Part shown: in pieces, positions 9,441 to 35,859 of the stretch
How positions within the stretch are numbered: position 1 is the first letter of the stretch
Layout: each line of letters starts with the position of its first letter
From: Actinomycetota bacterium
GTDB taxonomy: Bacteria; Actinomycetota; Actinomycetes; Mycobacteriales; Pseudonocardiaceae
Direction: 5' to 3'
DNA length: 44,960 bases
NCBI GenBank assembly: GCA_021324675.1
Contig: JAJPIR010000174.1
Span: forward strand, 1-44,960
Position numbers and translations under genes: made by a program
Notes under the pieces: model-generated
What the model was told of the DNA's origin: nothing
The model's input: only the letters and a program-made list of their open reading frames with translations
Databases searched by the model: none

Positions 9441-11520
<2,080 letters not shown>

Positions 11521-21076: not shown

Positions 21077-21105
21077 GTGACAGCCAGGATATAAACTGCT
21101 ATAAA
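21077..21105 (+). promoter_or_regulatory. Predicted promoter of the RiPP cluster
   Basis: GTGACA at 21077-21082, a 17-base spacer and TATAAA at 21100-21105 with an upstream TGC make a good extended -10/-35 promoter reading toward the precursor. The word AACTGCTATAAA at 21094-21105 is identical to that at 17050-17061. Transcription would start near 21112, leaving a leader of about 350 bases. Confidence 0.6.
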
Positions 21106-21464
21106 TGGATGCGTTGAGGTTGTCGAGGGAACGTACGTACCAAGCGACATCGCGAGCGATCACGAGCCGGGAGAGTCGATGTTCCACCCACGCGCCGACC
21201 GCTGTCGGTCATCCCGCCGTCAGCGACCACTCATGCCGTGCTCGCCAGCGGCCCAGTGGAGCTGGCTGGTCCAGGAGTAGCCACGGTCTACGAGATTGCG
21301 GGAGCGATCTCACGATCTACCTCGCCTGCCGGCCGTGTTGAGGCACGGCACGCGCTGATCGGGATTTCAAACCGGGGGTCTCCTATCTGGGTCTCGGGGA
21401 GAAATTCCCCATGAACGTGGCTGATCGGCCACGAAAAATCCACCGAGGAAACGAGGAGGAAAGC
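21106..21464 (+). other. Long leader region before the precursor gene
   Basis: This 359-base stretch contains no confidently assigned gene. Two items are visible. One frame is open from 21118 to a stop at 21412-21414, with possible GTG starts at 21238 and 21256, and ends LIGISNRGSPIWVSGRNSP. A hairpin at 21416-21433 (CGTGGC-6-GCCACG) lies 20 bases before the precursor ribosome binding site. A shorter GGGGA-GAAAT-TCCCC hairpin lies at about 21396-21410. The leader may host attenuation or a leader peptide. Confidence 0.35.
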
Positions 21465-21608
21465 ATGCAGGAAGCGGCTGAAACATTCGAGTTCGCTGAC
21501 TTCACCATCACCTCGCGGGAATGGCAAAACCGCTCTTCCGGCCATGATGTCGTCAACCCATCATCCGACAATGGTCGGGCTGCGTGGAGTAGCGACGCGG
21601 AGGAATGA
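21465..21608 (+). CDS. Candidate RiPP precursor peptide (47 residues)
   Basis: The start is ATG 21465, five bases after a perfect GAGGAGG (21453-21459), the strongest ribosome binding site in the region. An in-frame ATG at 21411 would add 18 residues but lies in a hairpin. The N-terminal half is acidic and aromatic (MQEAAETFEFADFTITSREW), as expected for a leader bound by an RRE domain. The C-terminal half (from Gln21) is a likely core with Ser-Ser pairs at 24-25, 33-34 and 42-43, exactly nine residues apart, each followed by Gly or Asp, plus Pro32 and Trp41. The pairs use different codons (TCT-TCC, TCA-TCC, AGT-AGC), so the pattern is kept at protein level. There is no Cys. It is first in the operon with YcaO, SagB and radical SAM enzymes. 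The leader/core boundary is unknown. Confidence 0.72.
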   Translation: MQEAAETFEFADFTITSREWQNRSSGHDVVNPSSDNGRAAWSSDAEE

Positions 21609-21662
21609 AACACCGGCAATAACTGCTGATGGACCCGCGATCTGCGGGCACTTCGGCGCCGG

Positions 21663-21703
21663 GCCGAGGGGCATCGCGCGGCGCGGGCCGCCGGCCTCTC
21701 GGC
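21663..21703 (+). other. Imperfect stem-loop between precursor and first enzyme gene
   Basis: GCCGAG (21663-21668) pairs with CTCGGC (21698-21703), and the stem continues with GGC/GCC after a mismatch, around a GC-rich loop. It lies in the 147-base gap between the precursor and the first oxygenase gene. Partial terminators here commonly let the precursor be made in excess over the enzymes; there is no T-tract, so this is tentative. Confidence 0.35.
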
Positions 21704-21755
21704 CTGGCCATCCTACCGCGCACCCGGCAAGTCACCCGGAGTGGAGAGGCGTCCG

Positions 21756-22403
21756 ATGCCGTCCCAATCGAACATGATGAACCAGCTGAATACGTCAAAC
21801 TCGACCTGGCGCTTTAAATCCGCGTGCCCGACGCAGCGGCCTTTTCGCCACTTCCAGGTCGCCCGAGTCCTCGACAAGCAGCTCGCAGACCGGCTCCTAG
21901 AATGGCTTGAGACCGCGCCTGGCTTCATTCCCCGTAACGAGCTGTTTTACCGCTCTAGCGCCTTTCATGTGAGCCCGCAAACCGCGCCACCCGCTCTCAG
22001 AGAATTCTTCTCGGTGTCCAATTTTCAGGCCCTGCGCGGCATCATGAGCGAATCGTTCGACCTGCCCTTCGCTGACCGGGTCATCGTTTCCGTCAACCGT
22101 TACGGCCTGGGCCAGGGCACGCTGATCCACACGGACTACGAGCCGGACGGGCAGCGGACCACGTTCTCGTTCACCCACAGGTTCTTGCTGTACCTGAACC
22201 GGGGCTGGCGCGCGGCCTGCGGAGGCGAACTCGGACTCTTCGATGGTCCGGAGCCCACTGACCTGGTTGCCACCGTGACCCCGACCCACAACAGCGGTGT
22301 GGCGCTCGAGATCGGGCCGACCTCCTACCACGCTGTCGCCGCTGTGCGATTTGGCCAGCGCTACAGCCTCAACTTCACCTTCGCCGCCCTGGAGCGGTCG
22401 TGA
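21756..22403 (+). CDS. 2-oxoglutarate/Fe(II)-dependent oxygenase, first copy
   Basis: A 215-residue double-stranded beta-helix oxygenase. The iron facial triad is His125 and Asp127 (LIHTDYEPDG) and His192 (SYHAV), and Arg202 (GQRYSLNFTF) is the expected 2OG-binding residue. Adjacent RFLLYLNRGW and GGELGLFDG are typical of prolyl-4-hydroxylase-like members. It probably hydroxylates the RiPP core peptide. The start is ATG 21756, seven bases after GGAGAGG; GTG 21741 is less likely. It overlaps the radical SAM gene by four bases (GTGA). A second, divergent oxygenase lies 2.5 kb downstream. Confidence 0.9.
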   Translation: MPSQSNMMNQLNTSNSTWRFKSACPTQRPFRHFQVARVLDKQLADRLLEWLETAPGFIPRNELFYRSSAFHVSPQTAPPALREFFSVSNFQALRGIMSESFDLPFADRVIVSVNRYGLGQGTLIHTDYEPDGQRTTFSFTHRFLLYLNRGWRAACGGELGLFDGPEPTDLVATVTPTHNSGVALEIGPTSYHAVAAVRFGQRYSLNFTFAALERS

Positions 22404-24364
22404 AGCTCGCATTGATCACCATGCCGTGGGCAGCTCTGGATTCTCCGTCGTTGGCACTGAGCACGCTGGCCCCGTGCGTCGAGGGCATGCCAGGAGTCGA
22501 CGCCGCAGACATCTGGTACGGGACGCTGCGCTGGGCAGAGTACGTCGCTGAGCAGCACGGGGTGGTGACCGGCGTCTCGCAGTACGACCGCATCGCTGAC
22601 GGATACTTTGTCGCCACCGGCGAGTGGGTGTTCTCCGGGGCGCTGTACGGCCAGCCGGACCCGGAGACCACTCGATTTCACCACCTGGCGGCCAGCAAGG
22701 GCGTCGACCTCACCGAGGCCACCGAGCTATACCGGATTGCTGGGAAGTTCATCGAGAACTGCGCGGCCGACCTGCTGGCCGACGGGTATGACACCTTCGG
22801 CTTCACCACCACTTTCCTGCAGAACGTGCCGTCCCTGGCGCTGGCGAAGGAGCTCAAGAAACGCCGGCCGGACGCCACCGTGATCTTCGGAGGAGCGAAC
22901 TGCGACGGCGTACAGGGCGCCGCCTTGCACCGCTGTTTTCCGTTCGTCGACTACGTCGTGCGCGGCGAGGGCGAGGCGGTATTCCCGAGCCTGCTGAGAT
23001 GGCTTTCAAACCCCTCGGCGACAGCACCTGCCGCACTGTCCGGCCTGTGCTGGCGTGACGGCTCGGGCGCAAGCGTAGCCAACCCGATGCAAGCCCAGCC
23101 GCTGTCGATGGCTCAGGTCCCCCGCGCTGACGTCAGTGGCTACTTCCGGTCGCTGAGCCGGTCCGCGCTCGACCGCTACCTCCGGCCGCAACTCGTGCTC
23201 GAGGGCGCACGCGGGTGCTGGTGGGGCGCCAAACACCACTGCAAATTCTGCGGGCTCAACGGCAACTCGATGCAGTTTCGCAGCAAGCCCGCGGACAGGC
23301 TGTACCTGGAGATCATCCAGACCGTGTCCGAGACCCAGGTCCTGGACGTATCCCTGGCAGACAACATCCTGGACATGGCCTACCTGCGCGATCTGATGCC
23401 GCGGTTGGCCGAGGCGGACTTCGACATCCGGCTCTTCTGCGAGATCAAGTCCAACCTGACCTATGAGCAGCTGGAGCGCCTCGCCCGCGCCAGGGTCGTG
23501 GAAGTCCAGCCCGGCATCGAAAACCTCAACTCCCGCGTGCTCGGCCTGATGCGCAAGGGCGTGACCGGCGTCCGCAACGTGGAACTGCTCCGCAACTGCG
23601 AGACACTGGGAATCGGAGTGTCCTGGAACTACCTTTATGGGTTCCCCGGCGAGAGCGGGTCCGACTACACCGCGATCCTGTCCCAGACTGCCGCGCTCAC
23701 CCACCTGCAACCACCGTCGGCGGCCTTCCGGGTTGCCCTGGAGCGGTTCAGTCCCTACTTCGAAGACCGCGAGCTCGGCTTGCGCAACCGGGGCCCTGCC
23801 CAGCTGTTCGCGGCGATCTACCAGCTGCCCCCGGAGGACCTGGCCGACCTTGTCTACCTCTTCGAAAGCGAGCCGAGCGGGATCAACGGCGCGGTAGAGC
23901 AGGAACTGCTTGCCGCCGCGGAGCGCTGGCGTGCTGGATACCGGGACAGCGAGCTGCGCGCCATCCGCGACGGCCACCGGCTGGTGGTGCTCGACCGGCG
24001 GGTCGGGCGGCCCGCGGGCGAGCATCTGTTGGAAGCCCCGCTTGAGATTGCGGCTTACCAGGGGTTGTTCTCCGGCCGGACGGTGGCTGGGCTGCGCCGC
24101 CACCTCGTAGACGACTGCGGGATCACCGCCGACGAAACCGCCCTGGACGAGCTGATTGACGAATGGCTCAGGCTCGGGCTCGTCTTCGGCGAGTCGGACC
24201 ACTACGTCGCCCTGGCAACGGGCAGCGATCTGCGGCCCGGCCTGTCCCGACACCGGCCCCAGACCGGGCCGGTAGGCCGAAAGGAACACCCGGATGATCG
24301 CAAGCACCGCGCCGTCCGCAAAGTTTTCGTACCGCTGTCTGGTGGACCTAGCCAGGCTTCCTGA
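22400..24364 (+). CDS. B12-binding radical SAM RiPP maturase (RiPP maturation radical SAM protein 1 type)
   Basis: A 654-residue enzyme. The N-terminal cobalamin-binding part contains GFTTTFLQNVPSLALAKELK and VIFGGANCDG, then VDYVVRGEGE (residues about 134-192). The radical SAM core has RGCWWGAKHHCKFCGLNG with Cys273, Cys281 and Cys284, a CX7CX2C spacing instead of CX3CX2C. I recall this as typical of the 'ribosomal peptide maturation radical SAM protein 1' family. It is followed by DVSLADNILDM and EVQPGIENLNSRVLGLMRKG. The C-terminal 70 residues look like a winged helix (LIDEWLRLGLVF) and may bind the leader. Related enzymes methylate unactivated carbons in peptides. The GTG start overlaps the preceding oxygenase. 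Confidence 0.9.
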   Translation: MKLALITMPWAALDSPSLALSTLAPCVEGMPGVDAADIWYGTLRWAEYVAEQHGVVTGVSQYDRIADGYFVATGEWVFSGALYGQPDPETTRFHHLAASKGVDLTEATELYRIAGKFIENCAADLLADGYDTFGFTTTFLQNVPSLALAKELKKRRPDATVIFGGANCDGVQGAALHRCFPFVDYVVRGEGEAVFPSLLRWLSNPSATAPAALSGLCWRDGSGASVANPMQAQPLSMAQVPRADVSGYFRSLSRSALDRYLRPQLVLEGARGCWWGAKHHCKFCGLNGNSMQFRSKPADRLYLEIIQTVSETQVLDVSLADNILDMAYLRDLMPRLAEADFDIRLFCEIKSNLTYEQLERLARARVVEVQPGIENLNSRVLGLMRKGVTGVRNVELLRNCETLGIGVSWNYLYGFPGESGSDYTAILSQTAALTHLQPPSAAFRVALERFSPYFEDRELGLRNRGPAQLFAAIYQLPPEDLADLVYLFESEPSGINGAVEQELLAAAERWRAGYRDSELRAIRDGHRLVVLDRRVGRPAGEHLLEAPLEIAAYQGLFSGRTVAGLRRHLVDDCGITADETALDELIDEWLRLGLVFGESDHYVALATGSDLRPGLSRHRPQTGPVGRKEHPDDRKHRAVRKVFVPLSGGPSQAS

Positions 24365-24875
24365 CCGCGACGTGCTGGGCAGGTGGTCACAGCGTGGCGT
24401 CCAGGAGCTGTCTGTGGCTGGTCGGCTGACCTACCGAAGCCCCGTGCTGGAGTTCCTCCAGTTCCTGCGCGATGCGGCAGGCCACCGCATGGCGGTCTGG
24501 TGGAGGGGGAACCTCGGCCTCACCGATCCCGCCGTCAGCCACCTGCCTCCGGCCGCGGACGACGACGGTGCCTGGAGCGCGGCGCACCGGCCGCTCAGCC
24601 TGACCTGGCGGCGCGGTCCCGGCTTCGTGCGGGTATGCCGGGAGGGGGAACCGAACAAGCAGCACGACATCGTCTTCGGCGATCCACTGCTGGTGCGTGC
24701 CTTTACCTTGGCGCAAAGCCCAGTGCGACCAGCCAGCCATGACGCGGACCGTGGGCTGCCGGCGGCCATGAACTTCCTGGCCTCACACGGCCTGGTCATC
24801 GCGCATCGCGACCGGGTGCTGGCCACCCCGGTCCGAATATTGCGCTGGCCCAGGCAACCCGCGCTGGAGGAATGA
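24294..24875 (+). CDS. DUF5825-like protein of the RiPP cluster
   Basis: A 193-residue soluble protein with no catalytic motif that I recognise. LEFLQFLRDAAGHRMAVWWR, then WRRGPGFVRVCRE, suggest an alpha/beta fold. By size, by position after a B12 radical SAM maturase and by these segments it resembles DUF5825 proteins (from memory), which accompany that enzyme in Actinobacteria. It may be a partner or chaperone of the radical SAM protein. The start ATG 24294, seven bases after AAGGAA, overlaps the radical SAM gene by 71 bases, an unusually long overlap; GTG 24342 is an alternative. The stop is close to the next gene. Confidence 0.65.
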   Translation: MIASTAPSAKFSYRCLVDLARLPDRDVLGRWSQRGVQELSVAGRLTYRSPVLEFLQFLRDAAGHRMAVWWRGNLGLTDPAVSHLPPAADDDGAWSAAHRPLSLTWRRGPGFVRVCREGEPNKQHDIVFGDPLLVRAFTLAQSPVRPASHDADRGLPAAMNFLASHGLVIAHRDRVLATPVRILRWPRQPALEE

Positions 24876-24931
24876 CGTGGACCTGCACTGCCGGACAGCT
24901 CTGCCGAAGGCGCCGAAAGGAGGAACCGGCG

Positions 24932-25537
24932 ATGATCGAGACTGTGGAGCGACGGCGTAGTTCGCCGTTCCCGCATTGCACCTTCAACAAGGTGTTCAGC
25001 CACCAGGTCGCCTGCGGCCTGAGCAGGTGCCTGGCCGACAGGGACGACTGGTCGTACCGCAGCGAACCACACAACCGGGTGCGTACCTGCCACTGGCGGC
25101 CGGACAACCTTCCGCCAGCGATAGCCGCCCTGCTCACCAGGGAGGTCCTGGATGAGCTCGCCGAAGGGGTGCAGAACATGTTCGGCGAGGTGTTCGCTGA
25201 AAAATTCTTCGTCACCGCCAACAAACAAATACCTGGCGATGGCTCGAAGGTGCACAACGACTACTTTGCCGACCACCTCGACCATCCGTTCTTCTTCACG
25301 CATCGGTTGATCGTCTACCTTTCGCCTGACGAGGCCGCCGGGCGCGGGGGAGTGCTGGGGCTGTTCGGCTCAGAAGACCCGAAGGACCTGCAGCGGGTCA
25401 TCACGCCACGGTTCAACACCGGTGTAGCCATGGCGATGGGACCGCGCTCGTTCCATGCGGTAAGCGCGATCACCGCGGGTACCCGCTACAGCCTGTGCTT
25501 CTCGTTCACCAACGCCGACCACCGCTACCACCTATGA
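24932..25537 (+). CDS. 2-oxoglutarate/Fe(II)-dependent oxygenase, second copy
   Basis: A 201-residue oxygenase with the facial triad His108 and Asp110 (KVHNDYFAD) and His175 (SFHAV), and 2OG-binding Arg185 (GTRYSLCFSF). It shares the frame HRLIVYLSP, GVLGLFGSEDP and FNTGVAMAMG with the first copy but is otherwise quite different, so the two are old paralogues with probably distinct target residues. The start is ATG 24932, seven bases after GGAGG; ATG 24872, overlapping the DUF5825-like stop, is possible but adds a Cys/Arg-rich stretch unlike the family. The stop overlaps the MmgE/PrpD start (ATGA). Confidence 0.9.
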   Translation: MIETVERRRSSPFPHCTFNKVFSHQVACGLSRCLADRDDWSYRSEPHNRVRTCHWRPDNLPPAIAALLTREVLDELAEGVQNMFGEVFAEKFFVTANKQIPGDGSKVHNDYFADHLDHPFFFTHRLIVYLSPDEAAGRGGVLGLFGSEDPKDLQRVITPRFNTGVAMAMGPRSFHAVSAITAGTRYSLCFSFTNADHRYHL

Positions 25538-26871
25538 GCGGCCCGTACGTCGGTCTGGACGCGCTGCCCGACGCGGTGGCCGCGCTACGTCCTGGTGCGG
25601 TTCCGCAAGACGCGCTCGAAGACGCCCGGCACGCCCTGGCGGACACCCTTGCGGCCGCCGCCTACACCGTGACCACTTCCGCGACGGCTTCTGCGCTCGC
25701 CAACGGAGTGGACGGACCAGGTGATGGACCGGTTGGCGTGTGGTGGACCGGGCGGCGCGCGCATCTAGCCGACGCCGCCTTCGCCAACGCATACCGGGTG
25801 CATTCCAGCGACTTCGACAGCGTCCATTACCTCTCGTTCGGGCATCCGGCTGCCGTGTCGCTGCCTCCGCTGCTCGGGTTGTACGAGTCCGGCGTCGGAG
25901 ATCCGCTGTGCGTCCTGGTCGGGTATGTGCTGTCCGTCGAGATCATGGCGGTGCTGGGCACAACGTTCGGGGCGGCGCTGCGGGCTGCGAGCTTCCACCC
26001 GACCGTCGTGCTCGGTGCACCGGCCAGCGCGGCCAGCTGTACCTGGTTCCTGGGCGGCGGTGCCCGCGCCATCCGGTGGGCCATGGCGTACGCGGCAAGC
26101 ATCACGATCGGTTTCGACGCCCACTTCGGTAGTGAGATCAAGCCGCTGCAGGTGGCGGCCTGTGCCCGTGCTGGATTGCACGCCGCCCAACTCGCCGTCG
26201 GCCGGAGCCGGACGGGGCCGCGAATGCCGTGGTACGCCCCTGTCGCCACACTGGCCGGCGCAGGCTCCACGCAGCCTGCGCCGCAGCTGCACGTTTTCGG
26301 TCAGCCCTGGGCGGCGCGAGTGGTGCCAACACGCTGCAAATCCCTGCCAATCTGCGGCTACTTCGACCCGGTGCTCGCCGCGTGGGCTGATCGGCCAGCC
26401 GGCCTTCCGGAGCCGGGAGCCGTCCAGCGGGTGACGGTGGAGGGGCCCGAGTACCTGGTGCGAGCCAACCGGTTCATCCATCCGACGACTCTCGATGAGG
26501 CACGCTTCAGCCTGCCGTTCCTTGTCGCACTACTCCTGCACCACCGGGAGGTCACCCCCGCCGATTGCGTCCCGGCCCGGCTGGCAGACCGCGGGTTCCG
26601 GCGCACCATGGCGGCGGTCGACGTGATGCCAGCCGCAGCCGGCGACCCTGGCGTGATCCGCGTGTTCAGCCGGGACCGGGAGTGGAGCCTTCCGCTGCGG
26701 CCCTTGGCGTCCTGCCCGCGTACCAGCTGGTCGCGGCTCCAGACCAAGCTCGCCGCGTCCGGGCTCGCCGACCGGGCATCCGAGATCGTCGCCCACGTCC
26801 GCGCCTTCGAGACATCCACCCCCACCCGGTGGCGTGCCCTGGTCAGCCCTTTCGAGGAGGCAACAACATGA
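25534..26871 (+). CDS. MmgE/PrpD-family protein within the RiPP cluster
   Basis: A 445-residue protein of the 2-methylcitrate dehydratase / cis-aconitate decarboxylase / epimerase superfamily. Family landmarks are ALADTLAAAAYTV at the start, NAYRVHSSDFDSVHYLSFGH (85-104; the HxxDFD motif), SEIKPLQVAACARAGLHAAQ (200-219) and the catalytic-region CKSLPICGYFDPVLAAW (from Cys268). These enzymes remove or move a proton next to a carboxylate, giving dehydration, decarboxylation or epimerisation. In this cluster it might act on an Asp or hydroxylated residue of the core, or on a small building block. It overlaps genes on both sides by four bases, so it is an integral part of the operon. Confidence 0.85.
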   Translation: MSGPYVGLDALPDAVAALRPGAVPQDALEDARHALADTLAAAAYTVTTSATASALANGVDGPGDGPVGVWWTGRRAHLADAAFANAYRVHSSDFDSVHYLSFGHPAAVSLPPLLGLYESGVGDPLCVLVGYVLSVEIMAVLGTTFGAALRAASFHPTVVLGAPASAASCTWFLGGGARAIRWAMAYAASITIGFDAHFGSEIKPLQVAACARAGLHAAQLAVGRSRTGPRMPWYAPVATLAGAGSTQPAPQLHVFGQPWAARVVPTRCKSLPICGYFDPVLAAWADRPAGLPEPGAVQRVTVEGPEYLVRANRFIHPTTLDEARFSLPFLVALLLHHREVTPADCVPARLADRGFRRTMAAVDVMPAAAGDPGVIRVFSRDREWSLPLRPLASCPRTSWSRLQTKLAASGLADRASEIVAHVRAFETSTPTRWRALVSPFEEATT

Positions 26872-27752
26872 ATGGCGATCTGCCGGTGAGCTACCGCCTG
26901 GGTGCCGGCTTCAGCTTGCACCTCGACGGCGTGGAGGCATGCCTGTACTCGGCCGACCGGGTCAGCGGCACGGTGCTGCGCGGCTTGGCCGCGCAGATGA
27001 CACAGCAGCTATGGCACCACGGTGAGTGCCACGGCAACATAACCGATGAACTATTCGCATCAGAGCCTCTCGGCATCCCCCGGGAGCGGTGGCTGGCGCT
27101 GGCCGCAGAGCTGTACCGGCGTGGTGTCCTGGAGCCGGCAGAGCCTCCCGCTGCGGGGAACTCCCAGCTTCCCGACAGGGTCACTGCGGTAAGGCTTGAG
27201 GCGCCCCCACGGTTGCGCGAGGCCACGGTCGAGCTGCTGGTCGGGTGTGGCGCAGAGGTCACCACTGGTCGGCGTGCTGCTGCCCCCGCCCCGGCACACG
27301 AGCTCATGGTGCTCATCGACGACCGATTTGACATCGCCCAGCATCGGGAGCTCAACCGCCGCGCCATACTGGCGGGAGCGGTGTTTTTGTCGCTTCGCCT
27401 GATGGCCCGGGGTTACGAGATCGGGCCGCTGGTCTTGCCTGGCCTAGGTGCCTGTTTCGAGTGTTACTGGCAGCGGTTGCAGGCGCCGTTCACCGAAGAC
27501 GGCCCACCGCCGTGGGTGGCCGGCTCCGCGCCGAGAGGCTGCTTCCAGCAACCAGGCCGGGTCGGCGAACTGGTGACCTCCAGCGCGTTGCATGCACTAG
27601 CTCTGGAGATTCACCGGGTCCTGCACGGTCCCGCGCCCGCCACGCTGTCCGATGTGCTGTCTGTGGACCTGGAACAGTGCCGCACGCACCGGCGGCGCGT
27701 GCTGGAGATACCGGGGTGCGGTGCCTGCACGCTGGCGGGTGTGCCGGCATGA
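26868..27752 (+). CDS. TOMM precursor leader-binding protein (E1/ThiF-like C protein)
   Basis: A 294-residue partner of YcaO cyclodehydratases. Residues about 10-90 (ending ALAAELYRRGVLEP) resemble the winged-helix RiPP recognition element. The remainder is a degenerate ThiF/E1 fold without an ATP-binding GxGxxG. The zinc-type cysteines are kept as CFEC (196-199) and CGAC (284-287). In azole-peptide clusters this protein binds the leader and presents the precursor to YcaO. The ATG start overlaps the PrpD stop, and its stop overlaps the YcaO start, giving an unbroken coupled series. Confidence 0.87.
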   Translation: MNGDLPVSYRLGAGFSLHLDGVEACLYSADRVSGTVLRGLAAQMTQQLWHHGECHGNITDELFASEPLGIPRERWLALAAELYRRGVLEPAEPPAAGNSQLPDRVTAVRLEAPPRLREATVELLVGCGAEVTTGRRAAAPAPAHELMVLIDDRFDIAQHRELNRRAILAGAVFLSLRLMARGYEIGPLVLPGLGACFECYWQRLQAPFTEDGPPPWVAGSAPRGCFQQPGRVGELVTSSALHALALEIHRVLHGPAPATLSDVLSVDLEQCRTHRRRVLEIPGCGACTLAGVPA

Positions 27753-29056
27753 AAACCGCCTTCGAACAGCCCCTGCCGTCGGCCGAGGCGGTGCTGGACC
27801 AGCTGGTGGGGCTAGTGGACCCGCACGTCGGGATCGTCCGGTTCCTGGCAGAGGAGTGGGATTACGCACCCGACGAGCCGGGCTTCGTGCTGTGGCGCTC
27901 GGAGCTTGCCCCGACCTCCTCCCTGTCGGACGGCGGCTACCGGCGGGTCACTTCCGTTGGAGGCCGCGGACTGACCACGAGCGAGGCACGGATCGGGGCA
28001 GTGTTTGAGGCGTTGGAGCGCTACTGCCTGTCGATCTACCGGCGAGCCGACCTCACCGTGGCCAGCTACCGCGCGCTTGTCGGGAACGGCACCCGCATAC
28101 TCGACCCGGTCGAGTTGGCCGGCGCCCCCACCCGGCCGTGCCTGCGCGACCGACCGCTGAGCTGGACGACAGCGGTATCGGTGCTGACCGGTGACCGAGT
28201 CTTCGTCCCGGCGCAGATGGTCTACCTGCCATACGCATTCCCGGACGACGAACCGGTGCTGCGTGACCCGCTCACCACCGGCGCGGCCAGCGGCCTAGGT
28301 CTCGGATTCGCCGTTCGTAACGGCCTGCTCGAAGTCGTTGAGCGCGACGCGGTGATGCTTGTGCACTATCGGCGGTTGCGGCCGACGGTGCTTGCTCCCG
28401 GAGTCTTCCGCGGAACCGACGTGTGGTGGTTACTGGCCGAGCTGCGACGCTACGGCCTGGACTGCACGCTGTTCCATGTGGACACCGGGTTGCCGGCGCA
28501 TGTCGTGGTGTGCCGGGTGGACGATCCCACGTGCATCGGGCCTGCCCAGTCGGTCGGCTCCAAGGCTGCCGCCTCAGTGGTGGACGCGGCCCGCGGGGCC
28601 ATCCTCGAGGCGGCGCTGCTGCGCCGGGCGCTGCGGCTTCGTGCGGCGAAGGTCCGCGCCGTGGCCGAGCACTACCTGGCGGACCTGTCCAGCATCGACT
28701 GCCTGGAGGCCCGGTCGCACACCTGGGCCCAGCCAGAGATGACCAGCCACCTGGACTACCTCACCGCCGGGGATGCCGAGGTGGTGCAGCGCGCCGGCGA
28801 GGTGCCAGACCGGTGGCAGGGTGACCTGGCGCTCGTGGAAGCCGTAGCCGCCGCTGGGAACGATGTGCTGGTCGCGGACGTCACCACGCCCGACGTTGCC
28901 AGCCTCGGAGTGTGCGTGGTCAAGGTCGTCGTACCAGGCCTGCAGCCGATGCACCTCAGCGAACGGTACCCCTCGTGGACAGCCCGGCTACTGACGTTCG
29001 GTGGCCGCACCGTCGCGCCAACCGAGCTCACCCCGATTCCCCATCCATTCCTGTGA
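27749..29056 (+). CDS. YcaO-domain cyclodehydratase
   Basis: A 435-residue ATP-dependent enzyme that forms azoline rings from Cys, Ser or Thr. ATP/Mg-binding motifs are SEARIGAVFEALERY (78-92, with Glu87 and Glu90) and GLGLGFAVRNGLLEVVERDA (182-201, with Glu195 and Glu198). The C-terminus ends TPIPHPFL, which contains the PxPxP tail found in azoline-forming YcaO proteins, so true ring formation rather than thioamidation is favoured. The only precursor candidate lacks Cys, implying Ser/Thr-derived oxazolines. The ATG start overlaps the leader-binding protein gene; SagB follows after 13 bases. Confidence 0.93.
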   Translation: MKTAFEQPLPSAEAVLDQLVGLVDPHVGIVRFLAEEWDYAPDEPGFVLWRSELAPTSSLSDGGYRRVTSVGGRGLTTSEARIGAVFEALERYCLSIYRRADLTVASYRALVGNGTRILDPVELAGAPTRPCLRDRPLSWTTAVSVLTGDRVFVPAQMVYLPYAFPDDEPVLRDPLTTGAASGLGLGFAVRNGLLEVVERDAVMLVHYRRLRPTVLAPGVFRGTDVWWLLAELRRYGLDCTLFHVDTGLPAHVVVCRVDDPTCIGPAQSVGSKAAASVVDAARGAILEAALLRRALRLRAAKVRAVAEHYLADLSSIDCLEARSHTWAQPEMTSHLDYLTAGDAEVVQRAGEVPDRWQGDLALVEAVAAAGNDVLVADVTTPDVASLGVCVVKVVVPGLQPMHLSERYPSWTARLLTFGGRTVAPTELTPIPHPFL

Positions 29057-29069
29057 CGGAGCAGCCGCC

Positions 29070-29816
29070 ATGACCCTCGATGACTGGCCGGCCAGCGGCG
29101 CTTTCCACGCTCGTAGTGCCATTCCCGGCCGGTCGCTGCGCGCGCAGACCTGGACCGACACGGCGGGCTGGCCACCGGAGTGGACTGAGATCACCGTGAA
29201 GGCATACCCGCGCCGCCCCTCGGTGCCACTGCCCGACCCAGCTGGCGACCACGCGGTTGCCGCGCTGCTGGACCGGAGAGGCTCGGTGCGGACCCCGACC
29301 GGGCCAGCCCTGCCGCTGGTGGTGTTGGCGGCTTTGCTGCGCTACTCCTGCGGCCTGCGCACGGGTAGCGATCGCCCGCCTGACGTCGCCCGGCGCGTCT
29401 ACCCCTCCGCCGGGGCACGGTTCCCCCTTGAGTGCTACGTCCTTGCCAACCGGTGCGCGGGACTCGCTGCCGGGGCCTATCACTACGACACTGTGGGACA
29501 CCGGCTGGCGACGCTTAGTGAGGCCGACCTGCGGGGTGACATCGAGCAGGCGTTCGGGTTCCCCTGGATCACCAGTTCCCGGGCGGTCATCGTGTTGACC
29601 GCTGCCCTGCGGCGCGGTGCGATCAAGTACGCGGACCGGGCCTACCGGTTCGCCCTGATCGAAGCCGGGCATGTCGGCCAGAACGCGATCCTGGTCGGCG
29701 AGACGCTCGGTGTGCCGGTCACGCCGGTCGGTGGCTTCGCAGACGAGCCCCTCAACCGGGTGATCGGCGCGCGCAAGGACGGTGAATTCGTCCTCTACAG
29801 CCTGGTCCTGCCATGA
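29070..29816 (+). CDS. SagB-type FMN-dependent azoline dehydrogenase
   Basis: A 248-residue nitroreductase-fold enzyme that oxidises azolines to aromatic azoles. RRVYPSAGARFPLECY (108-123) and YRFALIEAGHVGQNAILVGE (192-211) are the FMN-binding blocks of the SagB family. Lys186-Tyr187 in AIKYADRAYR corresponds to the conserved Lys-Tyr pair reported as catalytic in these dehydrogenases. VTPVGGFADEPLN near the C-terminus is also typical. It is somewhat short for the family, with a brief N-terminal extension. The start is ATG 29070, after ACGGAG. The stop overlaps the M16 protease start (ATGA). It predicts aromatic oxazoles in the product. Confidence 0.92.
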   Translation: MTLDDWPASGAFHARSAIPGRSLRAQTWTDTAGWPPEWTEITVKAYPRRPSVPLPDPAGDHAVAALLDRRGSVRTPTGPALPLVVLAALLRYSCGLRTGSDRPPDVARRVYPSAGARFPLECYVLANRCAGLAAGAYHYDTVGHRLATLSEADLRGDIEQAFGFPWITSSRAVIVLTAALRRGAIKYADRAYRFALIEAGHVGQNAILVGETLGVPVTPVGGFADEPLNRVIGARKDGEFVLYSLVLP

Positions 29817-31099
29817 CCGCGGAGGGAACCGGGACGATCACCACGCACCTGCTGGACAACGGCATGAGCTTCGTGGCGGCGCCCGATCCCACGGCCACCA
29901 CGGTGGCGATGTCGATCACCTGGCGGGTCGGGTTCGCCGACGATCCTGATGGTATGCCGGGGCTTGCCCACCTCGTCGAGCACCTGATGTTCCAGGGCAC
30001 CCGCAGACACAGCAGGCAGGATTACTACCGGACCTACTTCGGATCCGGGGGTTGTACCAACGCATACACCCGCACTGGTCACACCACCTACCACGCGGAG
30101 TTCCCAGCGCAGTTGCTGCCCGCAGCCATCGAGCTAGAGGCTGACCGGTTCGGTGACTTCGCGCCCACCCGGCAAGCCGTGGCACAGGAGGCCACGCTGA
30201 TCACCCGGGAGATCGCCGAGACCACGGGTGCCCGGCCTCTCGGTGGCTTCCCCTGGGAGCAGGTACAGGCCACGCTGTTCGCGGACACCGCTCATTCCCA
30301 CAACGGCTACGTAGCCCCACCCGGGCCGTCCTCGGCACTGCCGGCGGCTTGCCGGGAATTTGTCGCCAGCCGTTACCGACCGGAGCACGCCACCATCGCG
30401 CTGGTCGGTCGGCTGGACCCGGACAAGGCGCTCGAGCTGGTCGGCCTCGGAGTCGGCCGGTTGGCGCCGGCCAGCGAACCGGCCTGGCGGCGCCCGTGCC
30501 CGGTGGGCGGGACGGCCGGCCGCGTCGTCGTGGACGCACCGGGGGCCGGGCAGTGGCACGCGACAGCCTTCGGCTGGCGGATTCCGGAATCGTGGCTCAT
30601 CCCGCGGCGCGGCGCCGCGCTTGCCGTTCTCGCCGCCCTTGTGCACGGCGACGGCTCATCCGGCCTGCCACGGCGGCTGCGCGCGTGCGGAATTCGGGGA
30701 GTCGTGCGGGCCGACTTCGGGATGTTCGGCAATCTTGACGAGCTTGTCGAGGCCGCGTACTTGACCATCCAGGCCTATCACGGCCCGACCCAGCGGCAGA
30801 CCGTCCGCGAGGCAGTGCAGGCCACGCTGGAGACACTGGCGTCCCACCCACCGGCGACAGAGGTGCGGACCACCGCGGCCAGGCTGGTCAACCAACGCCG
30901 CCGGGCGCTGGCCGACCCGCTCGACCTGGCGAAGCTACTGGCCGAACAACGCACCCTGTGGTTGGACGCACAGCGGCCGTGGGCGGTACTGGGGGAGCTC
31001 ACGGCCACCGACGCCGCCGCGGTCGCCGCCGCGGCCCGGTGGCTGGCCAACACCGACCGCGCCGAGGTGGGCACCCGGATCCTGGGGGTGGGCCGGTGA
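29813..31099 (+). CDS. M16 zinc metalloprotease, catalytic subunit
   Basis: A 428-residue insulinase-family protein. The inverted zinc motif HLVEH is at 53-57 (LAHLVEHLMFQGT), and Glu133 (LITREI), 76 residues later, is placed as the third ligand. HTTYHAEFPAQLL and FVASRYRPEHATIALVG are typical of M16B domains. The gene after it encodes a paralogue without the zinc motif, so the two probably form a heterodimer, as in PqqF/PqqG or AlbE/AlbF. The likely job is removing the leader from the modified precursor. It overlaps SagB and the second M16 gene by four bases each. Confidence 0.92.
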   Translation: MTAEGTGTITTHLLDNGMSFVAAPDPTATTVAMSITWRVGFADDPDGMPGLAHLVEHLMFQGTRRHSRQDYYRTYFGSGGCTNAYTRTGHTTYHAEFPAQLLPAAIELEADRFGDFAPTRQAVAQEATLITREIAETTGARPLGGFPWEQVQATLFADTAHSHNGYVAPPGPSSALPAACREFVASRYRPEHATIALVGRLDPDKALELVGLGVGRLAPASEPAWRRPCPVGGTAGRVVVDAPGAGQWHATAFGWRIPESWLIPRRGAALAVLAALVHGDGSSGLPRRLRACGIRGVVRADFGMFGNLDELVEAAYLTIQAYHGPTQRQTVREAVQATLETLASHPPATEVRTTAARLVNQRRRALADPLDLAKLLAEQRTLWLDAQRPWAVLGELTATDAAAVAAAARWLANTDRAEVGTRILGVGR

Positions 31100-32373
31100 C
31101 CGTGACTGCCACCGGGAACGGCACGAATGTCGGCACCGTGCCGCCGCTCGATCAGCTGCTCGCCGACTGGGGCAGCGTGAGCATCGAAGCTTCCGGCCGG
31201 ACAGTCCTGCTGCCGGCCCACAACAACGCCGACTCCGTGGTGTTCACCGTCGTGCTGCCGTTGCACCAAACCACCCCAGAAGCGGTTGCGCCGGCGCTAT
31301 TGTGGGCGGCTTCGCTCCCGTTGTGCAGGGTCGGATCCATCACCCTGCAAGAGCGGATCGAGGAACTCGGCGGCGAGTCGACGCTGCGTGTCGTGGCGGG
31401 CGCGGTCCTGCTAGCCGGCAGCTGTCCCCATCGGTCCCTCACCATGTCACTGGATGCCATACGCTGCGCCATGGACGGGCCCGGGGTCGCCCCGCAGCGG
31501 CTCCGGGCGAAGGCACGCGAGCTCGCCGAGCAGCATCTGCTCCGCTGGGACAACGTAGAAATGCGGGCTCAGGCACTAGCCCGGCGCATGGCGTTCGGCC
31601 CCCGAGCCCCCCTTCCGGCCCCCACGCTCCACCAGGAGTTGACCGATCTGTGTCCCAGCGATATCGAGCACTACCGGTCGTGCGGCACCGATCCTGGGTG
31701 GCTGGTCGTAGCCGCCACCGACCCGCCGCGATGGCCCGAGCATCCCTGCCAACCGCCAGTCGAGCCGCCGGCCTTCAGGCCGCACTCTCCCCCTGAGCCG
31801 AGGATACCGATCTTCGCTGAGGATCCAGGCCGGGGAATCGGCGCCGTCGCGTTCGCTGGCGTGCTCTGCCCGGGACTCGCCGGCTACTGGGAGACCCGGT
31901 TGGCCAGCACGGTGCTCGGCGGATACTTCGCCTCCCGGCTGTGGGAGCAGTTGCGTGCCGGCCATGGCCGTGTCTACAGCCCACGCAGCATCCTGGAGCA
32001 CACCGCCGCCGGGCCCAACGTCCTCATCACCGCGAACACCGCGAGCGATGACTTTCCCGACACGGTGCGCACCGTGCGGCAGGAACTGGCCAGGCTGTGC
32101 CAGCACGGAGTCGACGGGCCTGAGCTGCTCAACGCACAGCGGTACCTGCTGGGTGGCCTGTTGCGGTCTGCCAATGGTGCCCGGCGGCTGTGTGCCCTCG
32201 TCGCTACCTGGCTGGCCCGTGGAGTGCCTCCCGCTCGCTTGCTCGCATCAGCCTCGATGATCCGCGACGTGACGCCCGGGGGTGTCCTGCGCGCCGCACG
32301 GCTCACCTTCGCGCCGTCAGTGATGTCCGTGGTTTTGTGCGGCGCCCGCCCAACGACCTACCCGTCATCCTGA
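31096..32373 (+). CDS. M16-like protein, non-catalytic partner
   Basis: A 425-residue M16-fold protein without HxxEH: the N-terminal domain keeps only the outline (LLPAHNNADSVVFTVVLPLH). The C-terminal domain holds the substrate-binding motif SRLWEQLRAGHGRVYSPRS, the usual R/Y pair of inactive M16 subunits. It would complement the upstream catalytic subunit to close the protease chamber around the precursor. The start is GTG 31096, overlapping the previous stop (GTGA). The methyltransferase gene follows after 23 bases. Confidence 0.88.
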   Translation: MTVTATGNGTNVGTVPPLDQLLADWGSVSIEASGRTVLLPAHNNADSVVFTVVLPLHQTTPEAVAPALLWAASLPLCRVGSITLQERIEELGGESTLRVVAGAVLLAGSCPHRSLTMSLDAIRCAMDGPGVAPQRLRAKARELAEQHLLRWDNVEMRAQALARRMAFGPRAPLPAPTLHQELTDLCPSDIEHYRSCGTDPGWLVVAATDPPRWPEHPCQPPVEPPAFRPHSPPEPRIPIFAEDPGRGIGAVAFAGVLCPGLAGYWETRLASTVLGGYFASRLWEQLRAGHGRVYSPRSILEHTAAGPNVLITANTASDDFPDTVRTVRQELARLCQHGVDGPELLNAQRYLLGGLLRSANGARRLCALVATWLARGVPPARLLASASMIRDVTPGGVLRAARLTFAPSVMSVVLCGARPTTYPSS

Positions 32374-32396
32374 CCGAAAACCCGGGGGGACTGAAG

Positions 32397-33137
32397 ATGA
32401 CCAGCTCTTTGTTCGACAGCGTGGCGGGCAGCTACGCGATCACCCGGCCGACCTACCCGGCCGCTGTCTATGACGCGATTCGCGCCGCGGTTGGCAGGCC
32501 CTACCCCGAGCTCACCGTGCTCGATGTCGGAGCCGGCACCGGGATCGCGACCGAGGCGATGGTGCGACGCGGCGCGACCGTGATCGCGATCGACCCGGCG
32601 CGCGAAATGCTGGCGCGCCTGGCAGAGGCCCTACCGGGCACGGAGACCATCTGCGCGAATGGCAATGCCTTACCGATCGAGGACGCGGTCGCCGACCTGG
32701 TCACCTACGCGCAAGCACTGCATTGGACCGTGCCTGAGAAATCCGTGCCGGAGGCGATGCGGGTACTACGACCGGCAGGCGTGGTCGCGGCGTGGTGGAA
32801 CGTACCCGACTTCGAGGTCGGGTGGGTGGCCGAGCAGGCCGAACGGCTGCGCCGATCCGCACCCACTTACCACGGGTTCTCCGGTACCGACATCGGCCAC
32901 CGGCTGGCTGAACCCCCCTTCAACCTGCATACCGAGCACCACCTCTTCGCGTGGAGCCGTAAGGTCACCATCGATCAGCACGTTGCCATGCTGGCAACCC
33001 AGTCGTACCTGGCCGCGCTTGAGCCCGGCCCGCGGGCCGCCTTCCTCGACGACGAAGCGCGTCACCTCGCGACCGCCTTCCCCGCCGGCATGGTCGATGA
33101 GTGCTACGTGACCAAGCTCACCATCGCTCACCGGTGA
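32397..33137 (+). CDS. Class I SAM-dependent methyltransferase
   Basis: A 246-residue methyltransferase. Motif I is TVLDVGAGTGIATE (40-53). It is followed by the acidic ribose-binding VIAIDPAREML and by ADLVTYAQALHW and MRVLRPAGVVAAWWN, typical of the UbiE/methyltransferase-11 group. In the cluster it may N- or O-methylate the peptide terminus or a side chain. The start is ATG 32397, seven bases downstream of GGGGGA. The stop is four bases before the hydrolase gene. No other cluster gene encodes a conventional methyltransferase; the radical SAM enzyme probably makes different (C-) methylations. Confidence 0.9.
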   Translation: MTSSLFDSVAGSYAITRPTYPAAVYDAIRAAVGRPYPELTVLDVGAGTGIATEAMVRRGATVIAIDPAREMLARLAEALPGTETICANGNALPIEDAVADLVTYAQALHWTVPEKSVPEAMRVLRPAGVVAAWWNVPDFEVGWVAEQAERLRRSAPTYHGFSGTDIGHRLAEPPFNLHTEHHLFAWSRKVTIDQHVAMLATQSYLAALEPGPRAAFLDDEARHLATAFPAGMVDECYVTKLTIAHR

Positions 33138-33141
33138 TCAG

Positions 33142-34428
33142 ATGCCCCCGGCGAGCGTGAGCCAGGCACACGGCGAAGGCACCGCGGTGCCCACCGCGCG
33201 ACGGCCCTCGACCCGCACCGCACGGGGGTGGCGGGGGGCCTTTTCCCTGTTGGTTCCGCTGACGCTGGCGCTCGCCCTGATCAGTCCCGTGATCAGTCCC
33301 TCGTCAGCCCCGCACGGCACTGTGCTCGGGCTGCGACTGATCGCCCCGTCCGGCCCGCTACCGGTGGGCACCACTGCGCTGCATCTTGTCGACCATGGCC
33401 GCGTGGACCCATGGCTGCCATCGGCTGGCGCACGCGAGCTCATGGTCACCCTCTGGTACCCGACCCGGCGTGCCGGTGGCCGCCCCCCCGCGCCCTGGAT
33501 GGACCGGCTGGCTGCAGAGCACTACCTTGCTCGGATCAGCGGGCGTGACGCGTCACCGGCGCAGCTATCGGCGGTGCCCGACACGCACAGTGAGCGCGAC
33601 GCGCCAGTAGCGCACCGGGCCGGCGGGTGGCCAGTGGTGCTGTTCTCGCCTGGCTACGGGGAAGACCGCGCCTTGGGCACCGAGCTGACCGAGGATCTCG
33701 CGAGCCGGGGATTCGTGGTCGCCGCCGTCGACCACACCTACGACGCCACCGAGGTGGCGTTCCCGCAACACAGGCTGGTGCTGCGCCACCAGCCGGTCCC
33801 GACCCCGGAGGCGTTGGCGGCATCCACCCGGATCAGGGCCGCCGACGCGCGGTTCGTGCTCGACGAGCTGATCGCGTTGAACCGAGGAGCCAACCCGGAT
33901 GCCGAGCACCGCATACTGCCGCCGGGCACCGTGGGAGCGCTGGATCTTGCCCGGGTCGGGATGTTCGGACACTCCCTTGGCGGAGCGACGACTGCCGAGA
34001 CAATGGTCGATGACCCCCGCATCCTGGCCGGGATCGACCTCGATGGCGTGCTGCACGGCGCGGTCTTGGATAGTGGCCTTGATCGACCGTTCTTGTTGAT
34101 GAGCCGTCAAGGCCATACCCACTACACCGACCCGACGTGGTCGCGGTCCTGGGCACACTTCACCGGCTGGCACGCTGAAATCCAGCTGGCTCGGTCTGCT
34201 CACTATTCGTTCACCGACAATGAGACGTTGTTGCCGCAGATGGCCGGCGTGCTGGGATTGACTGCCCAGCGGTTGCGGGAGCTGGTCGGCACGATCCCTC
34301 CCGGCACAGCGATCAGCGGCGAACGTGCCTGCATCGCTGCTTTTTTCGAACGCATGCTCGCCGGTCACGACAACGGATTGCTGGACGGTCCGTCGCTGCA
34401 ACTGCCCGCCGTGGCGCTGATCCCGTGA
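33142..34428 (+). CDS. Alpha/beta hydrolase, PAF-acetylhydrolase-like, membrane-anchored or secreted
   Basis: A 428-residue lipase-fold protein. An Arg-rich N-terminus followed by an apolar stretch (FSLLVPLTLALALISPVIS, residues 34-52) is a signal or anchor. VVLFSPGYGEDRALGTEL is the PAF-acetylhydrolase hallmark. The catalytic triad is Ser278 (GHSLGG), Asp299 or Asp301 (GIDLDG) and His354 (SAHYSFTD). It could hydrolyse an ester or amide in the peptide product (maturation, or self-protection outside the cytoplasm) or act on lipids. It lies between the methyltransferase and exporter genes, four and seven bases away, so it belongs to the operon. Confidence 0.87.
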   Translation: MPPASVSQAHGEGTAVPTARRPSTRTARGWRGAFSLLVPLTLALALISPVISPSSAPHGTVLGLRLIAPSGPLPVGTTALHLVDHGRVDPWLPSAGARELMVTLWYPTRRAGGRPPAPWMDRLAAEHYLARISGRDASPAQLSAVPDTHSERDAPVAHRAGGWPVVLFSPGYGEDRALGTELTEDLASRGFVVAAVDHTYDATEVAFPQHRLVLRHQPVPTPEALAASTRIRAADARFVLDELIALNRGANPDAEHRILPPGTVGALDLARVGMFGHSLGGATTAETMVDDPRILAGIDLDGVLHGAVLDSGLDRPFLLMSRQGHTHYTDPTWSRSWAHFTGWHAEIQLARSAHYSFTDNETLLPQMAGVLGLTAQRLRELVGTIPPGTAISGERACIAAFFERMLAGHDNGLLDGPSLQLPAVALIP

Positions 34429-34435
34429 GCGACTA

Positions 34436-35743
34436 ATGACCCACATAGCCCAGGAACCGCAGGCGATCGATCCCGACACCGCGGCCGACGGCAAAGCCGA
34501 CCCGCCGCTGTCCCGCAACCGGGCCTTCCAACTGCTGTGGGGTAGCCAGTTCCTCTCCACTATCGGGACTCGGACGAGCAGGCTGTCCTACCCACTTCTC
34601 GTGCTGGCCGTCCTAGGCTCACCCGCCGACGCGAGCCTGGTCAGCGCGGCGTTGACGCTGCCCATGCCGCTGCTCTACCTCCTGGCCGGTGCCCTGGTCG
34701 ACCGGACCGGGCACAAGCGCGTCCTGCTGCTGTGCGAAGGCGTCCGGGCGCTGGCCTTGGGGAGTGTGGCGGTTGCGATCTTCCTGAGATCGGTGAGTCT
34801 CTGGCAGCTGATCGTCGTCGCCTTCGTTGAGGGCAGCTGCTTCGTCTTCTTCCAGCTCGCCGAGGCCGCGCTGGTGCCCCGGGTAGTGCCCGGCGGCCAA
34901 CTGGCTTCGGCCATTGCGGCGAACCAGGCCCGGACATCCGGCGCGGAGCTGGTCGGTCAGCCGCTGGGCGGCCTGCTGTTCGGCCTGGGCTGGGCGGTGC
35001 CCTTCCTCGCCGACGCAGCGTCCTACCTGGCGTCATTCATCGCGCTGCTCGGGTTGCGCATCCCGGCGCGCGTCATGTCGGGAGCTGAGGTGCGACCGGT
35101 TGGACGGCGCGGCCTGGCACACGATCTTCTCGCCGGGTTGCGATGGTTTGCCCGGCAACGGGAGGCGATCGCCCTGGCCGTGGTCATCGGCCTGGTGAAC
35201 CTGCTGTTCGCCGCACTGCCGCTGGTGATGATCGTGAGAGCCAGGGATAGTGGCAGCAACCCGGAGGCCATCGGGTGGATGTTCGCGATGCTGTCTTGCG
35301 GGGCGATCATCGGGGCGGCCGCGGCACCGTGGCTGAGCCGCCGGGTCAATCGCCGGCTCTACCTCTGCCTGTCGCCGTGGTTCTGGTCGTTGTGCGTCCT
35401 CGCGCTCTCCGCGTCGTCCCGGCCCCTCCTGCTCGGTGGAATAGTGGGCGTGGCCATGCTGGCCGCCCCGACCTTCAACGTGATCACCTCGAGTTACTGG
35501 TACCGCGTCACCCCCGACGAACTCCAGGCTCGTTCCCAGAGCGTTCTACGTCTGATCACTTGGGGCGCGCTGCCGCTCGGCTCGCTCACCGCGGGATGGC
35601 TCACTCGATGGCCGACCAGCCAGGCGATTCTGGTACTTGCGCTTGCGATGGCGATCGTGGCAACAGGAATGTTGGGGGTATCTGTGGTGCTCCGGAAAGC
35701 GACGGCGCTGAGTCCGGCTACAAGTCAAGCGATGTGGTCCTGA
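34436..35743 (+). CDS. MFS transporter, probable exporter of the RiPP product
   Basis: A 435-residue major facilitator protein with about twelve membrane spans. LLWGSQFLSTIGTRTSRLSY is span 1, and ALVDRTGHKRVLLLCEGVRA is the A-motif loop after span 2. Pro/Gly-rich repeats in the second half include AAAPWLSRRVNRRLYLCLSP. The sequence resembles the enterobactin-exporter/tetronasin-like group often found in biosynthetic clusters. It is the last gene of the RiPP operon, seven bases after the hydrolase gene, and is followed by a large inverted repeat. It probably exports the mature peptide and gives self-resistance. Confidence 0.9.
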   Translation: MTHIAQEPQAIDPDTAADGKADPPLSRNRAFQLLWGSQFLSTIGTRTSRLSYPLLVLAVLGSPADASLVSAALTLPMPLLYLLAGALVDRTGHKRVLLLCEGVRALALGSVAVAIFLRSVSLWQLIVVAFVEGSCFVFFQLAEAALVPRVVPGGQLASAIAANQARTSGAELVGQPLGGLLFGLGWAVPFLADAASYLASFIALLGLRIPARVMSGAEVRPVGRRGLAHDLLAGLRWFARQREAIALAVVIGLVNLLFAALPLVMIVRARDSGSNPEAIGWMFAMLSCGAIIGAAAAPWLSRRVNRRLYLCLSPWFWSLCVLALSASSRPLLLGGIVGVAMLAAPTFNVITSSYWYRVTPDELQARSQSVLRLITWGALPLGSLTAGWLTRWPTSQAILVLALAMAIVATGMLGVSVVLRKATALSPATSQAMWS

Positions 35744-35744
35744 T

Positions 35745-35839: not shown

Positions 35840-35859
35840 GCGTGGAGAGACCGGATGCG

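Follow-up and report, generated by a model that had tools for sequence, protein, structure and literature searches.

Bottromycin is made with a YcaO enzyme and B12-dependent radical S-adenosylmethionine (SAM) methylation and has a core with C-methylated Val/Pro, and muscoride, a cyanobactin, carries azoles next to Pro. In clusters for linear azole peptides (LAPs/TOMMs), a leader-binding protein (LBP), YcaO, and SagB are critical components (PMC5719810; papers given by PMC number are cited here for their accessible parts). A B12 radical SAM enzyme paired with a DUF5825 protein was reported to C-methylate in clavusporin biosynthesis (PMC12257519). In polytheonamide biosynthesis, B12 radical SAM C-methylation occurs together with hydroxylation of Val and N-methyl-Asn by a 2-oxoglutarate (2OG) enzyme on the same peptide, and a related pathway C-methylates Val side chains (PMC9505594). 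We analyzed a 44,960-nucleotide stretch (the window; contig JAJPIR010000174.1, assembly GCA_021324675.1) from an Actinomycetota bacterium of the family Pseudonocardiaceae, in which fourteen consecutive open reading frames (ORFs) on the + strand, at positions 21465-35743, bring together enzyme types of such systems with an MmgE/PrpD-family protein. The gene set, its motifs, a conserved core, and the recurrence of the core gene set in another phylum were observed. With a probability of roughly 0.7, we propose that this operon makes an azole-containing ribosomally synthesized and post-translationally modified peptide (RiPP) from the core VVNPSSDNGR of a 47-residue precursor, by a pathway predicted from enzyme families and motifs.

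The precursor gene (21465-21608, +) follows a GGAGG-type ribosome-binding sequence and encodes a peptide with the leader pattern F-x-F-x-x-F-x-I-T-S-x-E-W. No Pfam match was found for it up to E 1, which is a modest test because HMMER filters drop weak matches. An earlier note, made from the letters of this DNA, could name it as a candidate only; it is now backed by an orthologue in another phylum, a 56-residue peptide encoded at 5109-5279 of a contig (L110) of Ectobacillus antri (Bacillota), likewise preceded by a GGAGG-type sequence. The tblastn match between the window precursor and this contig had an E value of 1.7e-11 (database of 8 loci) and is therefore not a chance match. When the two peptides were aligned, 22 columns were identical, and the orthologue thus supports the precursor call and defines the core as VVNPSSDNGR, residues 29-38 (21549-21578, +), with 10/10 residues the same. 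At the DNA level, 21 of the 30 core bases agree between the genomes, and all nine differences are silent; a His two residues before the core and a Trp three residues after it are also kept. The other proteins of the two loci are only 24-52% identical, which argues that the constraint lies on the peptide itself. Within the invariant block, Ser33 and Ser34 are the sole Ser/Thr/Cys residues and no residue is aromatic; the whole precursor is free of Cys.

The second locus was reached through the radical SAM enzyme. A scan of a collection of 84,980 species by exact eight-residue patterns found 243 relatives; the 80 best were taken on as loci, some of them stopping early at contig ends. Contig NZ_RIAV01000046.1 of E. 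antri (L028) heads the list, with 47% identity over 607 residues, and encodes the radical SAM enzyme, the DUF5825 protein, and a PrpD-family gene. A YcaO search of the same genome led to L110, which encodes, besides the precursor, a major facilitator superfamily (MFS) protein, an M3-type oligoendopeptidase, a 2OG oxygenase, LBP, YcaO, and SagB. Between the window and Ectobacillus, identities were 51-52% for 2OG oxygenase A, 47% for the radical SAM enzyme, 41% for SagB, and 37% for YcaO, and lower for LBP and DUF5825 (27-28%), PrpD (24-26%), and the MFS protein (24%). The G+C contents of L028 and L110 are 0.37 and 0.35 versus 0.68 for the window operon, so that neither recent transfer nor contamination with actinobacterial DNA explains the resemblance. 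L028 has an inverted terminal identity of 119 bases, and both contigs hold ORFs that look like transposases, as judged from their translations; the two are therefore likely to be one cluster broken by insertion sequences. The earlier note had asked for a search for the same gene set elsewhere: the core of the set recurs, but the second 2OG oxygenase is not among the matches in the Ectobacillus genome, nor are the M16 pair, the methyltransferase, and the hydrolase among those on the two contigs. The same genome also encodes another YcaO, more distantly related, and close to it a single open frame gave two SagB-like matches (L111, G591:C16:30000-48000).

In the window, the azole-forming enzymes are encoded in a row. 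The TOMM leader-binding protein (26868-27752, +), the N-half of a split cyclodehydratase, reached 44.4 bits against TIGR03882 (cut-off 36.9); the Ectobacillus relative reaches TIGR03603 only below its cut-off. YcaO (27749-29056, +) scored 183 bits against PF02624 (cut-off 25.7) and 204.4 bits against the narrower SagD subfamily model, below the cut-off of 219.25. The SagB-type azoline dehydrogenase (29070-29816, +; scanned from 29001) scored 112.7 bits against TIGR03605 (cut-off 78.4) and has a Lys-Tyr pair at residues 186-187, a pair that is catalytic in McbC. Together with Ser in the core, the YcaO protein, its E1/ocin-ThiF-type leader-binding partner, and the flavin mononucleotide dehydrogenase SagB supply what characterizes an azole RiPP of the LAP/TOMM class. 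Since Ser33 and Ser34 are the only heterocyclizable residues in the invariant block, a Pro-linked bis-oxazole formed from them is the simplest product prediction. Pathways with a YcaO can also alter the backbone in other ways, as in amidine formation (PMC8442711), and the enzyme might install an amidine, a thioamide, or an unoxidized azoline instead of an oxazole. We consider this very unlikely: LBP and SagB stand directly beside YcaO in both genomes, an arrangement described for linear azole peptides (PMC5719810), the closest YcaO relatives of solved structure are LynD, TruD, and MusD, and no TfuA match was found in the thirteen cluster proteins scanned, for which reason a thioamide peptide was rejected. 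A thiopeptide was also rejected, with no match to a lanthipeptide-type dehydratase or a pyridine synthase in the same thirteen proteins.

The locus thus resembles linear azole peptide clusters in having separate LBP, YcaO, and SagB genes together with a leader peptide and an exporter. It differs from them in adding the B12 radical SAM/DUF5825 module, two 2OG oxygenases, PrpD, and an M16 pair, and in a precursor with one conserved Ser-Ser site and no Cys. For both YcaO and LBP, the best matches of solved structure include MusD, which takes bis-azole substrates in muscoride biosynthesis (PMC10885120); these matches are weak (E 1.9e-12 and 5.6e-4, respectively), and the predicted substrate is likewise a bis-azole. 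Unlike in muscoride, the cyclodehydratase here consists of two separate proteins, and none of the fourteen genes gave a prenyltransferase match. Bottromycin has a follower peptide and no canonical leader and forms a macroamidine (PMC10885120); here, in contrast, SagB is present and a conserved leader precedes the core (residues 29-38), which is not at the N-terminus before a follower. A structure prediction for LBP from a two-row alignment gave a mean predicted local distance difference test (pLDDT) score of 35.8, too low to use; strands followed by helices at the N-terminus of the model would fit a recognition element, which is not evidence at that score.

The second group of enzymes consists of the B12 radical SAM enzyme (22400-24364, +) and the DUF5825 protein, its presumed partner (24294-24875, +; start uncertain). 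The former scored 531.8 bits against the C-methyltransferase family TIGR03975 (cut-off 281.85) and 28.2 bits against the Pfam B12-binding domain, under the cut-off of 32.1; its C-x7-C-x2-C spacing was the same in all 104 radical SAM rows compared. The latter scored 39.7 bits against PF19142 (cut-off 25). A TIGR03975 enzyme next to a DUF5825 protein, the mark of C-methylated RiPPs of this type, was therefore found, and the same family pair is reported from clavusporin biosynthesis; unlike there, the window module is part of an azole pathway. Another B12 radical SAM enzyme, PbsB, crosslinks aromatic residues and does not methylate, according to the accessible part of PMC12257519, and the window enzyme might similarly make a crosslink or some other radical change. 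We regard this as distinctly unlikely, because the invariant block lacks an aromatic residue (the conserved Trp lies three residues later), the enzyme exceeds the C-methyltransferase cut-off, and it adjoins DUF5825, the pairing reported for C-methylation in that same paper.

The radical SAM/DUF5825 module is widespread, and it is seldom joined to azole enzymes and PrpD. Of the 80 radical SAM loci, 79 have a DUF5825 ORF (77/78 once the two loci that supplied rows to the three-row profile are set aside), versus no match at E 0.001 for the YcaO, LBP, SagB, 2OG, and precursor profiles and one for the PrpD profile, in L028, itself one of the two rows of that profile; tblastn with the window PrpD agreed that only L028 carries one. 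In a quick tree of the 104 radical SAM rows, the window, Ectobacillus, and eight other actinobacterial rows group together (SH-aLRT 96), which is compatible with a common origin of the module. The host shares its family with a genome (G045) whose radical SAM protein is the same as that of Actinokineospora spheciospongiae, which itself points to Pseudonocardiaceae as the probable family. The Streptomyces loci L053, L054, L057, L058, and L066, which combine a radical SAM enzyme with DUF5825, probably represent a different RiPP family. Four ORFs were scanned in L053 and were assigned as DUF5825, two cytochromes P450, and an MFS protein, with relatives in L054, L057, L058, L066, and L122.

Two 2OG/Fe(II) oxygenases are encoded, the YhhC-like oxygenase A (21756-22403, +; scanned from 21759) and oxygenase B (24872-25537, +). 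They scored 42.2 and 29.5 bits against 2OG-FeII_Oxy_3 (PF13640, cut-off 27), and both keep the H-x-D motif, the distal His, and the Arg. Oxygenase A reached 123.6 bits against NF041706, below the cut-off of 150; it is 51% identical to the protein encoded at L110 5490-6125 and 33% identical to oxygenase B. The combination of B12 radical SAM and 2OG enzyme types is shared with polytheonamide-type proteusins (PMC9505594). Unlike in polytheonamide, the leader is short and, in the modest Pfam test above, has no match to a nitrile-hydratase-like or any other family, azole enzymes are present, and one radical SAM gene is found among the fourteen, so that there is no separate PoyD-type epimerase.

The MmgE/PrpD-family enzyme (25534-26871, +) scored 102.3 bits against MmgE_PrpD_N (PF03972, cut-off 32.1) and 27.5 bits against MmgE_PrpD_C, under the cut-off of 32.1. 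It belongs to the same sequence family as iminodisuccinate epimerase, cis-aconitate decarboxylase, and 2-methylcitrate dehydratase, and its closest solved structures are iminodisuccinate epimerase (E 1.9e-30) and Bacillus IRG1 (E 1.4e-23). One histidine is held to be the most important for IRG1 activity, and His99 and Tyr145 were proposed as the bases of iminodisuccinate epimerase (PMC7347537). By alignment, the IRG1 histidine is kept in the window enzyme as H104. In place of the Arg that precedes this His by two residues, the window enzyme has Phe and the Ectobacillus enzyme Tyr; both also carry Arg where the epimerase has its second-base Tyr, and accordingly lack its two-base pair. The window enzyme also has no match to the NCBIfam PrpD models that mark 2-methylcitrate dehydratase, and the Ectobacillus enzyme reached 31.6 bits versus a cut-off of 950. 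In a comparison genome, L127, probably a 2-methylcitrate dehydratase (NF042438, 440.5 bits in a part-protein scan versus a whole-protein cut-off of 950), is likewise aromatic at the position of the Arg before the His, and two other PrpDs are not; the substituted sites thus give a thin fit to a dehydratase-like or altered pocket. A structure prediction from a two-row alignment (mean pLDDT 34.1) was too low to use.

The second genome ties PrpD to the pathway. In both phyla prpD lies downstream of the radical SAM/DUF5825 genes, in the window it stands mid-operon with four-base overlaps on both sides, and it is the one PrpD-family gene found in each of the two genomes (E 0.001). These observations, and the fact that only Ectobacillus matches among the 80 radical SAM loci, speak against PrpD and the accessory genes being passengers of an ordinary linear azole peptide pathway, the least probable of the alternatives weighed here. 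It would be favored by the PrpDs of the two loci being no more alike (24% identity) than the window enzyme is to PrpDs of other genomes (25% each to L128 and L131), and by PrpD being best known from the methylcitrate cycle, as in PMC5719810, the one paper found to have both PrpD and a precursor peptide, where it is treated separately from the azole peptide clusters. We tentatively suggest, at somewhat less than even odds, that PrpD acts in the pathway as a peptide dehydratase or epimerase.

Five further genes complete the operon. An M16 peptidase with the zinc motif HLVEH (29813-31099, +; PF00675, 63.3 bits, cut-off 22.3) is followed by a partner without H-x-x-E-H that matches only Peptidase_M16_C (31096-32373, +; PF05193, 33.8 bits, cut-off 23), as would be the case for a heteromeric M16 peptidase; the leaders of class III lanthipeptides are removed by proteases of this kind (PMC10885120). 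The oligoendopeptidase on L110 reached 285.3 bits against its M3-type model, below the cut-off of 561.7. Behind the M16 pair lie a class I SAM methyltransferase (32397-33137, +; scanned 32370-33137; PF08241, 70.1 bits, cut-off 21.2), an alpha/beta hydrolase resembling platelet-activating factor acetylhydrolase with a GHSLG motif (33142-34428, +; PF03403, 51.7 bits, cut-off 20), and an MFS exporter (34436-35743, +; PF05977, 92.3 bits, cut-off 27), with an MFS protein of the same Pfam family at L110 2517-3761.

We infer each chemical step of the following pathway, its site, and its place in the order. The leader-binding protein would bind the leader (about residues 1-27) and together with YcaO would cyclize Ser33 and Ser34 to oxazolines, from which SagB would form, by oxidation, a bis-oxazole linked to Pro32. 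The radical SAM enzyme and DUF5825 would place one or more methyl groups on unactivated carbons, most likely of Val29/Val30, and the 2OG oxygenases would hydroxylate side-chain carbons, most likely of Asn/Asp. PrpD would then remove a proton adjacent to a carboxylate or carboxamide, with Asp35 or a neighboring Asn as the most likely site, and either expel the new hydroxyl as water or invert the center. The M16 heterodimer, or in Ectobacillus perhaps the M3-type peptidase, would trim the leader; the methyltransferase and the hydrolase would finish or protect the product, and the MFS protein would export it. The peptide might instead serve only as a scaffold from which the peptidases excise a very small compound that works as a cofactor, metallophore, or signal, much as pyrroloquinoline quinone arises, with PrpD acting on the free fragment. 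Peptidase genes at both loci, the full invariance of the core between both precursors, and the small acids that known PrpD-family enzymes bind in a deep basic pocket (PMC7347537) would suit such a scheme. It is nevertheless unlikely, as ten contiguous conserved residues exceed the needs of a two- or three-residue cofactor, and the radical SAM enzyme, YcaO, LBP, and SagB belong to peptide-modifying subfamilies.

An azole-containing RiPP therefore remains our preferred product, and several observations weigh against it or against its sharing by the two genomes, in addition to the low identity of the two PrpDs. L028 and L110 are not joined in the draft assembly, so a single Ectobacillus cluster is a reconstruction. 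The M16 pair, the methyltransferase, and the hydrolase were not found on these two contigs, the rest of the genome not having been searched for them, and a search of the Ectobacillus genome for another 2OG relative gave none, the oxygenase B query finding there only the relative of oxygenase A. The similarity of the MFS proteins is weak evidence, the family being common. In the radical SAM tree, the window joins the eight actinobacterial rows (support 89) and not Ectobacillus alone, with long-branch warnings, and a sister relation of the two clusters is not supported. These eight rows were rejected as members of the same pathway: the six with wide flanks (L053, L054, L057, L058, L066, and, for L008, L122) have no YcaO, SagB, LBP, 2OG, or PrpD match, and only short flanks were covered for L010 and L011.

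A third member of this cluster type was found in none of our genome samples, which overlap between searches; the set was found only in the window and E. antri genomes. YcaO at E 1e-40 matched 0/199 other genomes of the window's family. Profile A1 matched none of 148 other genomes of the Ectobacillus order at 1e-60 and, at 1e-45, none of 397 others of the Ectobacillus phylum, 18 others of the Ectobacillus family, or 395 others of the window's phylum. The radical SAM query matched 20 of 393 other genomes of the class sample at 1e-60, and five of these with wide flanks had no YcaO, LBP, SagB, 2OG, or PrpD at E 0.01. Within the window's genus, three of ten other genomes matched at 1e-20, two with other LBP-YcaO-SagB sets and the third with a YcaO match only; no PrpD, DUF5825, 2OG, or precursor profile match was found in the three at E 1. 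One of these sets is L132 (G191:C179:42500-61500, at 7546-10913). In the other, L133 (G138:C37:39000-58000, at 8118-13177), SagB, YcaO, and LBP stand in a row with an ORF that weakly resembles the radical SAM protein (23% over 298 residues), perhaps another azole/radical SAM hybrid, without a match to this precursor, PrpD, or DUF5825. On plasmids, YcaO matches occurred in 22 and 60 records and radical SAM matches in 82, all below 60% identity, with one precursor match at E 3; viral contigs gave no match to the core pattern. Elsewhere in the genome from which the window comes, there is one more YcaO match (L002, G000:C34:36116-37069; E 2.9e-29).

As for the layout of the window operon, all fourteen ORFs listed by the earlier note exist, and every enzyme class it named was backed by Pfam/NCBIfam searches. 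Its four-base overlaps at most junctions hold for seven of the thirteen, but not for the other six, and the likely starts of oxygenase A, SagB, and the methyltransferase were corrected to 21756, 29070, and 32397. No sigma-70-type promoter match was found within 19000-37500, and terminator-like matches there were fewer than in shuffled sequence (1 versus 6.8), so the ends of the operon are set by gene content only. Just upstream on the - strand lie an amidohydrolase resembling Xaa-Pro dipeptidase (19073-20551; 237.1 bits versus a cut-off of 500) and, overlapping it, a 166-residue ORF without a Pfam match (20370-20870), presumably a helix-turn-helix regulator from the look of its translation; a link of this pair to a Pro-containing product is possible. 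Downstream, also on the - strand, a MauE-domain ORF (37630-38538) and a trypsin-like protease with a PDZ domain (38981-39901) probably lie outside the cluster.

The idea of a hybrid RiPP locus with azole-forming, C-methylating, and hydroxylating enzyme types is thus upheld by families and motifs, whereas the installation of oxazoles, methyls, and hydroxyls stays a prediction. Four points go beyond the earlier note: the invariant ten-residue core, the radical SAM enzyme and DUF5825 as a single module, the missing zinc motif in the second M16 protein, and a proposed role for PrpD. Searches of the open literature, with subscription papers mostly outside coverage, found no described RiPP with the whole combination, as the earlier note had claimed, no PrpD enzyme in any RiPP pathway, and no paper on the core string, its parts, or the name Ectobacillus antri. 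Each enzyme type is known; what appears new is the combination, together with a role for PrpD that is unproven but testable. A new azole RiPP family that spans Actinomycetota and Bacillota, with an invariant ten-residue core and PrpD acting on the peptide as a dehydratase or epimerase, is a possibility to which we give a little less than an even chance. If true, hydroxylation by a 2OG enzyme and subsequent elimination by PrpD would give RiPP pathways a new way of making alpha,beta-dehydro (or inverted) Asp/Asn with two enzymes, an enzyme family of primary metabolism would have been recruited to the pathway, and three RiPP chemistries (azole formation, radical C-methylation, and 2OG hydroxylation) would meet on one short core. 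The pathway is compact and its substrate has 47 residues, which makes direct testing by heterologous expression feasible. The same core across phyla, despite the drift of the proteins to 24-52% identity, suggests a mature molecule with a fixed target.

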